Below are positions 1,997 to 6,632 of a stretch of 12,929 nucleotides of DNA, piece by piece. Position 1 is the stretch's first letter, and every line of letters starts with the position of its first letter. The notes under the pieces were generated by a model that saw only the letters and a program-made list of their open reading frames with translations, made no database searches and was not told the DNA's origin. The translations under genes were made by a program, and so were the position numbers. This DNA is from Blautia sp. (GTDB lineage Bacteria; Bacillota; Clostridia; Lachnospirales; Lachnospiraceae). Location of the stretch: NCBI GenBank assembly GCA_017420455.1, contig JAFOJB010000290.1, positions 1 to 12,929 of the forward strand. Direction: 5' to 3'.

Positions 1997-2190
1997 GCAT
2001 ATGCTGTGAAGATACAGTTCTTATGGAACTGTACAGAAATAACCCTTACAGATGGTGCAGGATAAATCGTTCAGACAAGGCGGAGGAATGAGTCGATGCG
2101 GGCATCGACGAATGACTGCAGCGCAGCCCGGGCGGATTCAGACGCGCAAGATGTAAAGGGTATTTATGGACAGTTCCTAAGCATATTTAC
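1997..2190 (+). ncRNA. Structured non-coding RNA, about 190 nt (raiA-motif or 6S candidate)
   Basis: No open frame with a ribosome binding site is present, but the two ends pair over a long distance: ATATGCT (1999-2005) with AGCATAT (2180-2186), GGAACTGT (2025-2032) with ACAGTTCC (2170-2177), AAATA (2037-2041) with TATTT (2161-2165), CCCTT (2043-2047) with AAGGG (2156-2160), and ACA (2048-2050) with TGT (2152-2154). Inside is a 7-bp hairpin, GTCGATG (2092-2098) and CATCGAC (2103-2109). Its CGGG loop can pair with CCCG at 2127-2130, a possible pseudoknot. The core is richer in GC than its flanks and repeats TTCAGAC (2070-2076, 2137-2143) and GGCGGA (2079-2084, 2131-2136). A perfect -10 lies just upstream. 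The long closing helix and size fit 6S RNA, while the conserved-looking core with pseudoknot potential reminds me more of the raiA motif of Firmicutes. I could not check either. It might also act as a long leader for the Asp23 gene, since no terminator follows. Confidence 0.7.
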
Positions 2191-4589: not shown

Positions 4590-6632
4590 ATGAAACCACT
4601 TCGGGAACTGAAGGGGGTCGGGGAGAAGACGGAAAAGCTTTTCGCAAAGGTCGGCGTCGATACGACGGATGCCCTTCTCCACTATTATCCCAGAAACTAT
4701 GACGCCTTCCAGGAGCCGGTTCCCATCAGCGGATTACGGGAAGGGGAGGTCTTTTCCATAAAGGCGCAGGTGGCCTCCGAAATCTATATCAACCGGGGCG
4801 GAAGCCGGAATGTGATCGGGGTCACCCTTTCGGACCGCTCCGGGAGGATCCCTTCAATCTGGTTCCACGCCCCGTACCTTCGGAGCACCCTGAAGAAAGG
4901 CGCGGTTTACATATTCCGGGGAAGGGCGGGAAAACGGCAGAACCGCCTGCAGCTTGAGCATCCGGAGATTTTTACGGTAGAAGCCTACGCGGAGCTTCTG
5001 AAAACCCTTCGCCCGGTCTACTCGCTTACGGAAGGCCTGTCCAACAAAACTGTCACCAGGATGGTGAAAAAATGCCTGGAGGAAGAGGAACTCCTTCCGG
5101 ACTTTCTCCCGCCGGAAATCAGGGAAGGCTGCCGGCTCTGCGAGGAAAGCGAGGCCGTCAGGACGATCCATTTTCCAAAGACCAGGGAGGCGCTTCTGAC
5201 CGCCAGAAAAAGGCTGGTCTTTGATGAATTTCTTCTGTTTCTGCTTACGGTCCGGACCATGAGGGAAAACACCCTCGCCGCGGAAAATGAGTTCCATCTG
5301 AAGCCGGTGTGGAAGACAGAGGAGGTGATCGAATCCCTTCCCTATGAGCTTACCAAAGCCCAGAGAAATGTATGGACAGAGATCGAAAGGGACCTTTGCG
5401 GACACAGTGTCATGTCCCGGCTTGTACAGGGAGATGTGGGAAGCGGAAAGACCATCCTGGCCTTTCTTTCTATGATCCTGACTGCGGAAAACGGACACCA
5501 GTCTGCCCTGATGGTTCCCACGGAGGTGCTGGCGAACCAGCATTTTGAAGCGCTGACCTCCCTTCTGGAAAAGAACGGTCTGGAAAACTACTGCCCGGTC
5601 CTTCTGACCGGCTCCCAGACCGCGAAGGAAAAAAAGGAGCGGTACGAAAAAATCCGTACCGGACAGGCAAAGGTGATCGTCGGTACCCACGCGCTGATCC
5701 AGGAAAAGGTGGTCTATCAGGACCTGGCTCTGGTGATCACGGACGAGCAGCATCGGTTTGGAGTGAAGCAGAGAGAAGAATTTACTTCCCGGGGCCGTTC
5801 CCCGCATGTGCTGGTCATGAGCGCCACGCCCATCCCAAGGACACTGGCCCTCATCCTGTACGGAGACCTGGATATTTCCATCCTGGACGAGCTTCCCAGG
5901 AACCGTCTTCCCATCAAAAACTGCGTGGTTGACACCAGTTATCGGGAAAAAGCCTGCCGCTTCCTGGAAAAACAGGTACGGGAAGGAAGACAGGTTTACA
6001 TAATATGTCCCATGGTGGAAGGGAACGACGAGCTGGAGATCGAGAATGTGACGGATTACACCGAAAACCTGAAAACCGTCCTTCCACAGGATATCCGGAT
6101 CAGAGCCCTTCACGGGAAAATGAAGCCGAAGGAAAAGAATGAGATTATGGCCCTCTTCCTCGAAGGTGCCGTTGATATCCTGGTTTCCACCACGGTCATC
6201 GAAGTGGGCGTGAATGTACCGAACGCCACCGTCATGATGGTGGAAAATGCCGAACGCTTCGGCCTGGCGCAGCTCCATCAGCTTCGCGGCCGGGTAGGAC
6301 GGGGAGCGTATCAGTCCTACTGTATTTTTATACAGGGAAATCAGGAGGAGGAAACCAGGAAAAGGCTGGAAATCCTGAACAGCTCCAACGATGGGTTCCA
6401 TATTGCGGCGGAGGACCTGCGCCTGAGAGGCCCGGGAGACCTCTTTGGAATCCGTCAGAGCGGCCTGATGGATTTCCGGATCGGAGATATTTACCAGGAT
6501 GCCGATATCCTGAAAACCGCCAGCGAAGCAGCCGCCTCCATCCTTCAGGAAGACCCGTTTCTCACCCGGGAAGGCCACAGATACCTGAAGGAGAAGCTGG
6601 ATGAATATACCCGGAAAAAAATCTGTTTATGA
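4590..6632 (+). CDS. recG: ATP-dependent DNA helicase RecG
   Basis: RecG reverses stalled replication forks and moves Holliday junctions. The 680-residue product has the normal family length. An N-terminal helix-hairpin-like LKGVGEKT is followed by the OB-fold wedge domain (about residues 55-150). The helicase core carries all expected motifs: GDVGSGKT (about 283-290, Walker A), DEQH (385-388), SATPIP (from 411), TTVIEVGVNVPNA (motif V) and QLRGRVGR (564-571, motif VI). The RecG-specific end AAEDLRLRGPGDLFGIRQSG is intact. The start is ATG 4590 behind GGAGGAGAGG (4576-4585). Longer forms beginning at 4533 would be made from repeat DNA and are unlikely. The fakA-recG order is that of Bacillus (yloV, then recG further on). 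A terminator separates it from fakA, so transcription depends on read-through or on an unseen promoter. Confidence 0.98.
   Translation: MKPLRELKGVGEKTEKLFAKVGVDTTDALLHYYPRNYDAFQEPVPISGLREGEVFSIKAQVASEIYINRGGSRNVIGVTLSDRSGRIPSIWFHAPYLRSTLKKGAVYIFRGRAGKRQNRLQLEHPEIFTVEAYAELLKTLRPVYSLTEGLSNKTVTRMVKKCLEEEELLPDFLPPEIREGCRLCEESEAVRTIHFPKTREALLTARKRLVFDEFLLFLLTVRTMRENTLAAENEFHLKPVWKTEEVIESLPYELTKAQRNVWTEIERDLCGHSVMSRLVQGDVGSGKTILAFLSMILTAENGHQSALMVPTEVLANQHFEALTSLLEKNGLENYCPVLLTGSQTAKEKKERYEKIRTGQAKVIVGTHALIQEKVVYQDLALVITDEQHRFGVKQREEFTSRGRSPHVLVMSATPIPRTLALILYGDLDISILDELPRNRLPIKNCVVDTSYREKACRFLEKQVREGRQVYIICPMVEGNDELEIENVTDYTENLKTVLPQDIRIRALHGKMKPKEKNEIMALFLEGAVDILVSTTVIEVGVNVPNATVMMVENAERFGLAQLHQLRGRVGRGAYQSYCIFIQGNQEEETRKRLEILNSSNDGFHIAAEDLRLRGPGDLFGIRQSGLMDFRIGDIYQDADILKTASEAAASILQEDPFLTREGHRYLKEKLDEYTRKKICL

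Follow-up and report, generated by a model that had tools for sequence, protein, structure and literature searches.

A dispersed hairpin family with a strongly conserved middle, probably a MITE-like mobile element, in Blautia, other Lachnospiraceae and Streptomyces

The structured stretch that lies between rpmB and an Asp23-family gene in a contig of Blautia sp. (JAFOJB010000290.1; the whole stretch of 12,929 nucleotides that was analysed is called the window here) is a copy of a dispersed repeat, which is not visible to a reader of one window. We consider it likely that the structure belongs to a family of non-autonomous, MITE-like mobile elements, each about 160 bp long, and to a variant that is new in that its middle is more conserved than its ends. 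Small mobile repeats are usually known by their conserved ends, the middle being meaningless. In this hairpin family it is the other way round: the middle has deeply conserved internal loops, covaries very strongly and is kept in two phyla as the ends change. Because Rfam lacks the family, a reader of one copy can take it for an RNA gene; this is what happened in the first-pass annotation of the window, where positions 1997 to 2190 were read as a structured RNA gene.

The element occupies positions 2020 to 2181 on the + strand, flanking CTTA and TAAG included, as defined by the extent of its similarity to copies in the same genome and genus. The copies are long hairpins which consist, from the outside in, of inverted ends, an outer helix P1, an internal loop, a helix P2, a conserved asymmetric loop and an apical hairpin; some of them carry extra hairpins between the two core strands. 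In the window copy the target-like CTTA at 2020–2023 is followed by one extra T at 2024 as compared with other copies (CTTAGGAACTG), such as the one in L029, and then by the left terminal inverted repeat, which is the 5′ strand of P1 (2025–2050; GGAACTGTACAGAAATAACCCTTACA). Loop A, with a family consensus of approximately ACGCAGRAT facing AGRCAAG, has its two conserved strands at 2055–2063 and 2140–2147, and the strands of P2 are at 2064–2075, where the window copy is partly degenerate, and at 2127–2138. The core asymmetric loop is made of CAAGGCGGAGGAATGAG facing GATTGACGACAACGCAG. Its 5′ strand (2076–2092) falls mostly on columns that are invariant or nearly invariant among 35 diverse copies, while its 3′ strand (2110–2126) is degenerate in the window copy and reads GAATGACTGCAGCGCAG. 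Between them is the apical hairpin P3 at 2092–2109 (GTCGATGC-GG-GCATCGAC). The right terminal inverted repeat, or 3′ strand of P1, takes up 2152–2177 and ends in ACAGTTCC, with TAAG at the right edge (2178–2181). The one-base insertion at the left end and the altered 3′ core give the window copy the look of an old insertion that has degenerated somewhat. The internal repeats noted in the first reading do exist: 2021–2041 recurs with 90% identity at 2200–2220, on the same strand, as a solo terminal-repeat remnant that is probably a decayed neighbouring element. This remnant is followed by an imperfect 31-nt inverted repeat at 2237–2317, and the two are probably what is left of another element that lay next to the hairpin, on the side of the Asp23-type gene, which lies downstream on the same strand as the element.

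A good part of what had been seen in the letters alone was confirmed. The fold is real: 1996–2192 folds at −61.5 kcal/mol against a mean of −48.9 kcal/mol for 200 dinucleotide-preserving shuffles (z −2.9; 3 of the 200 as good), and both the closing pattern across about 185 nt and the apical hairpin are present. The statement that no gene is possible also stands, as no ORF of at least 50 aa lies wholly within 2020–2181, with a 59-aa frame beginning inside at 2096. The proposed extent was right in its main part, the unit common to the copies being approximately 2020–2181, but the outermost pairing of ATATGCT with AGCATAT (1999–2005 with 2180–2186) is mostly outside this unit. That pairing at the element edge, and the ACAGTTC at 2014–2020 which faces the left end, are either chance or the trace of a nested insertion. 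The perfect −10 is likewise there, as TATAAT at 1985–1990, but it sits about 30 bases upstream of the element, and its “right distance” found no support. A promoter scan of 1850–2450 gave no sigma-70-type promoter on the + strand and two on the − strand, with 0.9 expected. The TATAAT was thus rejected as the element’s own promoter, being outside the repeated unit and without support from the scan.

The more specific proposals fared less well. A loop–loop pseudoknot between CGGG (2099–2102) and CCCG (2127–2130) is not conserved in 35 aligned copies, whose paired columns read mostly C-A (28), G-G (27) and G-A (28), with G-C (28) at one end only. The raiA motif and 6S RNA (SsrS), two folded RNAs of about 200 nt, had been named as candidate families. 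Neither gave a match to its Rfam covariance model at the gathering cut-off, and neither is among the five matches obtained at E up to 10; no other family matched at the curated cut-off, and those five matches, found in 1900–2400, are at chance level and belong to other families. The remaining option, an unnamed family, was right insofar as Rfam has no match, and neither Rfam nor the part of the literature that was searched, by title and start of abstract, yielded a description of the hairpin family.

Conserved secondary structure with strong covariation, in turn, is well supported. In the alignment of 35 diverse copies, one of them actinobacterial, all 22 invariant columns fall in the core and the hairpin (positions 49–95 of the window’s row) and none in the arms, which differ in sequence between copies yet remain complementary. 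RNAalifold predicted 33 pairs from these copies, 26 of them with two-sided changes. An alignment fitted to model R1 (108 matches, of which 106 distinct, from 100 chosen sources) has two-sided changes at 32 of the 33 pairs and 92.3% of its cells paired; the covariation of the 106 distinct copies is 0.569, against 0.182 when shuffled and at most 0.105 when the partners are slid. Compensatory base changes across homologues, which mark a structured RNA family, are therefore present, as measured on dispersed copies rather than on homologous rpmB–Asp23 gaps. It should be kept in mind that palindrome correction can also keep the arms matched, so that arm complementarity alone is the weaker evidence; conservation of the unpaired loops would not be expected of such a process. 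The G·U pairs add a strand to the picture. They outnumber A·C mispairs by 297 to 67, in 24 columns against 6, in the alignment A2, which is fitted to R1 and leans to G·U, and by 201 to 63 when the two strongest columns are left out. The corresponding counts are 86 and 29 in a MAFFT alignment with pairs chosen by RNAalifold, and 213 and 144 in a G·U-blind count over 82 copies. This excess points to selection on the folded + strand, as RNA or as single-stranded DNA, with the caution that a strand-biased mutation process could mimic it.

With 1980–2200 of the window as the query, which makes the search independent of model R1, there were 12 matches in the window’s own genome when only 8 of 79 candidates had been scored. 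Of the 98 genomes searched, 16 had matches, its own counted, and every one of them belongs to this genus, while the 38 genomes from other genera had none. Model R1 matches the window at 2030–2165 with 90.8 bits, a score that is not independent since the window copy is one of the 35 training sequences. With 54 of 738 candidates scored, the model found at least 25 copies in the window’s own genome. Across the genus it matched 33 of 60 genomes, among them G036 with 54 copies (all 54 scored candidates), G057 with 46 and G038 with 27. These counts are lower bounds, as only part of the candidates were scored per genome (54 in the genus, 10 in the phylum). In the phylum sample R1 matched 12 of 299 genomes and 9 of 215 genera, the own genome counted, and the weakest of these matches (E 4e-4) may be chance.

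Outside this sample, the core pattern occurs in at least 117 stretches of the named species collection. Among the matches listed, many of which are from gut bacteria, the titles mostly give Lachnospiraceae or one of its genera, such as Blautia, Roseburia and Mediterraneibacter, and many say just Clostridia, Eubacteriales or similar; the matches listed also include one bin labelled Selenomonadaceae, one labelled Bacteroidales, which is perhaps a misplaced contig, and two actinobacterial contigs, of Streptomyces alanosinicus (L084) and Sciscionella marina (L147). The core consensus was found at 15 places in 10 Streptomyces plasmid records and in no other plasmids; the Streptomyces copies retain most of the core. 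Phages had no match to the core consensus, viral contigs none to the core pattern, and plasmids and phages none to the window element itself. Similar sequences may occur in Geobacter-like genomes as well.

The places where the copies sit have little in common. Around 99 copies, the flanking ORFs as called by a simple ORF caller were ++ in 28 cases, −− in 38, −+ in 15 and +− in 9, with 8 copies far from any and 1 inside a gene, which amounts to no orientation preference. The 25 largest clusters of neighbours, judged by eye, hold genes for ABC transporters, response regulators, ATPases and metabolism, in many cases from a single place sampled repeatedly, and no transposase or other recurrent neighbour resembling a mover. 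Many copies in G039, G057 and G036 begin within the first bases of contigs, and because of this the repeat probably breaks short-read assemblies.

The case for mobility comes from the edges of the copies. CTAG stands on both sides of 62 of 146 copies and on one side of 29, another matching tetramer bounds 18, and 37 had no call, under a rule for calling ends that favours CTAG. An exact insertion is shown by a filled and an empty site with flanks 94–95% identical: G004 reads AAACAG-CTAG-element-CTAG-AATCG where G051 reads AAACAA-CTGG-AATCG. A CTRG that is present once in the empty site is thus found twice in the filled one, as in a target-site duplication; this is one clean pair, at a locus other than that of the window, and the empty site reads CTGG, not CTAG. 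A second pair of genomes gave no clean empty site, having 58 bp of other sequence there. Elements that abut with one common CTAG were seen at four loci (L057, L126, L141 and L329). The end pattern of one subfamily is present in 19 of 60 genomes of the genus, and the same ends are found on elements with lengths of 34, 43, 50, 60, 76, 95, 101, 165 and 216 bp. The window copy itself is short and non-coding with terminal inverted repeats, and the family has many dispersed copies, as is characteristic of MITEs. A 60-bp derivative without the core (L180, L187) has the same layout in G042 and G001, and equally long pairs recur at a number of other places and in other genomes; judging by such derivatives, the core may not be strictly needed for movement. 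A chimeric element is present in L040 (about 5095–5230), with one arm of the CTAGTACAACA subfamily and the other of the CTAGTGTACTG subfamily, as would be expected from template switching.

The best lead to an enzyme is in Streptomyces. The hairpin copies there terminate in CTAGGGCCTGTCCGGCGGATCA, and one such end, used as a query, matched 47 plasmid records, in one case at the insertion sequence IS1648 of SCP2. At either end IS1648 carries CTAGG followed by two variable bases and CTGTCCGGCGGATCA, and its two-frame transposase matches NF033580 of the IS5 family and has the domains PF13340 and PF01609. IS1648 has no hairpin core, R1 finding no match in L311, and a simple internal deletion of IS1648 would therefore not give the element. 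Pairs of IS1648/hairpin-type ends also span 76 bp (L313, 2001–2076) and 277 bp (L314, 2001–2277) on Streptomyces plasmids, in parallel with the short and long classes of Blautia, and such terminal repeats bracket an annotated DUF6082 gene, possibly a passenger, in pSVL1 of Streptomyces vietnamensis (L312, 2001–2776).

In Blautia no mover is established. A search of 60 genomes for PF13340, the IS1648 domain, found it in 5; the element-rich G000, G036, G057 and G039 gave no hit, an absence limited for G000 and G057 by their completeness of 78% and 66%. The PF13340 copies of G038 are CTAG-ended elements of 885–886 bp whose ends, CTAGAGCGTGTCTGAAAAA, differ from the hairpin ends, although one of these elements directly adjoins a hairpin (L329, 947–1832 and 1845–1984). 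An IS5-family element of G023 also directly abuts a hairpin with different ends (L320, 942–1826 and 1839–1971). Elements with PF01609 are present in 9 of 11 genomes; at the 30 loci examined, 12 had no end call and the rest, by eye, did not match the hairpin ends. The IS630 domain PF13358 is present in 6 of 14 genomes searched. Of nine such loci, two are bounded by CTAG with perfect or near-perfect ends, one in G042 and one in G023 (CTAGTGTGCTGACC and CTAGTGTACTGACC), and their transposases match NF033545 of the IS630 family. After the CTAG, these ends agree at 10 of 14 positions with the hairpin ends CTAGTGTACTGACAC (L033) and CTAGTGCGCTGACAC (L063), which come from other Lachnospiraceae, an agreement reached by 6 to 15 of 2000 shuffles in a comparison with a list of 21 distinct hairpin ends only. 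The IS630 ends of G038 match less well, with 55 and 450 of 2000 shuffles as good. The resemblance covers about 9 bases after the CTAG and one hairpin subfamily (CTAGTGTRCTGAC), the other subfamilies being unmatched. We therefore treat IS630-type enzymes as a candidate lead for one subfamily, a weaker one than the IS1648 type in Streptomyces.

A complete element carrying hairpin ends was also looked for by the spacing of the ends. The exact end pattern of another subfamily (the subfamily ends being CTAGTACANYGAA, CTAGTGTRCTGAC and TTAGGAACTGT) gave no pair 0.5–3 kb apart in 8 genomes. For the window copy’s own subfamily, with ends TTAGGAACTGT, there is no known mover, and no autonomous partner was found among the PF13340, PF01609 and PF13358 loci examined. 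Several candidates for autonomous elements were rejected: a 1.9-kb end pair in G052 consists of two separate short copies, and the ORFs between them are by eye unlike transposases; a 6.0-kb pair in G052 has a decayed hairpin at its start; a 2.1-kb pair in L040 is made up of a hairpin and the short chimeric element; and four single ends are solo or truncated elements. One further pair, in G028, is spaced 19.6 kb, and no elements split around an ORF were noticed among the halves listed.

Taken as a mobile element, the hairpin would be recognised at its ends in trans by a DDE transposase favouring CTAG, which would insert it and leave the target on both sides. The best candidate for this enzyme in Streptomyces would be the IS1648 type, and IS630-type enzymes would be the weaker lead in Lachnospiraceae. 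In our preferred view the loops and the apex would be kept because the folded + strand, as RNA or single-stranded DNA, is a protein’s recognition target and aids persistence of the element; of all the steps this one is the least certain. A further step, to which we give rather less than even odds, is that small transposons carry the conserved middle as a passenger, a functional RNA that acts at the RNA level. Loop A, the core loop and the apical hairpin would then be kept across Bacillota and Actinomycetota while ends and arms are replaced, with perhaps even the transposase family swapped, the IS5 type in one and the IS630 type in the other. Such a module might bind a host RNA-binding protein or nuclease, making insertions in transcription units tolerated, or it might recruit the transposase. 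If it is true that the middle acts as RNA, small transposons would here, as is rarely the case, possess a conserved RNA module of their own.

The strong covariation and the excess of G·U over A·C mispairs would also suit a gene for a structured RNA, or an RNA that regulates the Asp23 operon in cis, from an undescribed family and fixed at its locus, and so would the position of the element, which precedes the Asp23-type gene on the strand of that gene. We find this most unlikely, and the first-pass reading of an RNA gene between rpmB and Asp23 is not supported, in view of the copies beside unrelated genes without a preferred orientation (among 99), the element ends and insertion-site hallmarks they bear, the empty site at another locus, and the lack of both a + strand promoter in the scan and a match in Rfam. 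It could also be argued that the arms have no function at all. Quasi-palindrome correction is an established process; acting in replication it would keep the repeats perfect, leaving the conserved middle as a matter of shared ancestry only, and the chimeric element of L040, with one arm copying that of another subfamily, speaks for this. This explanation is unlikely in our view: the confinement of all 22 invariant columns to core and hairpin, in copies whose arms differ and which include an actinobacterial one, goes against it, as does the retention of most of the core in Streptomyces, and the strand-specific excess of G·U (24 columns against 6) is not predicted by it.

Two other alternatives concern the enzyme. 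IS630-type (Tc1/mariner-like) transposases prefer CTAG, and a single enzyme class of this type might move the family, at least in Lachnospiraceae. The agreement of the CTAG-bounded ends in G042 and G023 with the hairpin ends of L033 and L063 raised our estimate of this from distinctly unlikely to rather unlikely. Against it, the match is to a single hairpin subfamily and is poorer in G038, the eight searched genomes without PF13358 include G000, G057, G039, G028 and G032, and the Streptomyces copies match IS1648 and not the IS630 present there. A very unlikely alternative is that the element is of REP/REPIN type, with a RAYT-like tyrosine (Y1) transposase moving it in the form of single-stranded DNA. 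A dispersed, asymmetric hairpin that is folded on one strand, with most subfamilies lacking a known autonomous partner, does call such elements to mind, REPs being tied to RAYT genes (PMC3733652), and Y1 proteins of RAYT length (199–277 aa) are encoded in G002, G010, G027, G032 and G040. Of these five genomes, however, only G027 (1) and G032 (7) have R1 matches. PF01797 hits are absent from the element-rich G039 and only fragments in G000 and G036, most of the strong ones are of IS200-like length, and across 60 genomes they do not track the element load. The ends, moreover, are inverted and often CTAG-bounded on both sides, and in Streptomyces the same ends are borne by a DDE insertion sequence. 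A non-autonomous, MITE-like element remains our preferred reading.

Set beside known systems, the hairpin family differs from the raiA motif and 6S RNA in having no Rfam match and in being dispersed copies instead of one gene. With IS1648 of Streptomyces (IS5 family, NF033580), and the MITEs to be expected from it, there is a likeness in that the Streptomyces copies have the CTAGG..CTGTCCGGCGGATCA of both IS1648 ends, but IS1648 is without the hairpin core and the Lachnospiraceae copies carry other ends. The IS630-family elements of Blautia in G042 and G023 have CTAG-bounded ends that resemble the CTAGTGTRCTGAC subfamily, though over about 9 bases after the CTAG and in that one subfamily, and they have no core inside. 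REP/REPIN elements with RAYT (PMC3733652) are similarly dispersed palindromes with an asymmetric hairpin; the present family is set apart by its CTAG-bounded inverted ends, its size of about 160 bp and its failure to track Y1 transposase genes. The closest likeness is to the bacterial MITEs, such as RUP, Correia, Chunjie and QMITE2 (PMC10969869, PMC2229807, PMC5896051), which are, like the hairpin family, non-coding, 100–300 bp long and mostly intergenic, with terminal inverted repeats, a stable stem-loop, several length classes and abutting insertions. Relative to the MITEs described there, the hairpin family is distinct in having its middle as the most conserved part, with ends that vary by subfamily, and in having the same middle in both Bacillota and Actinomycetota.
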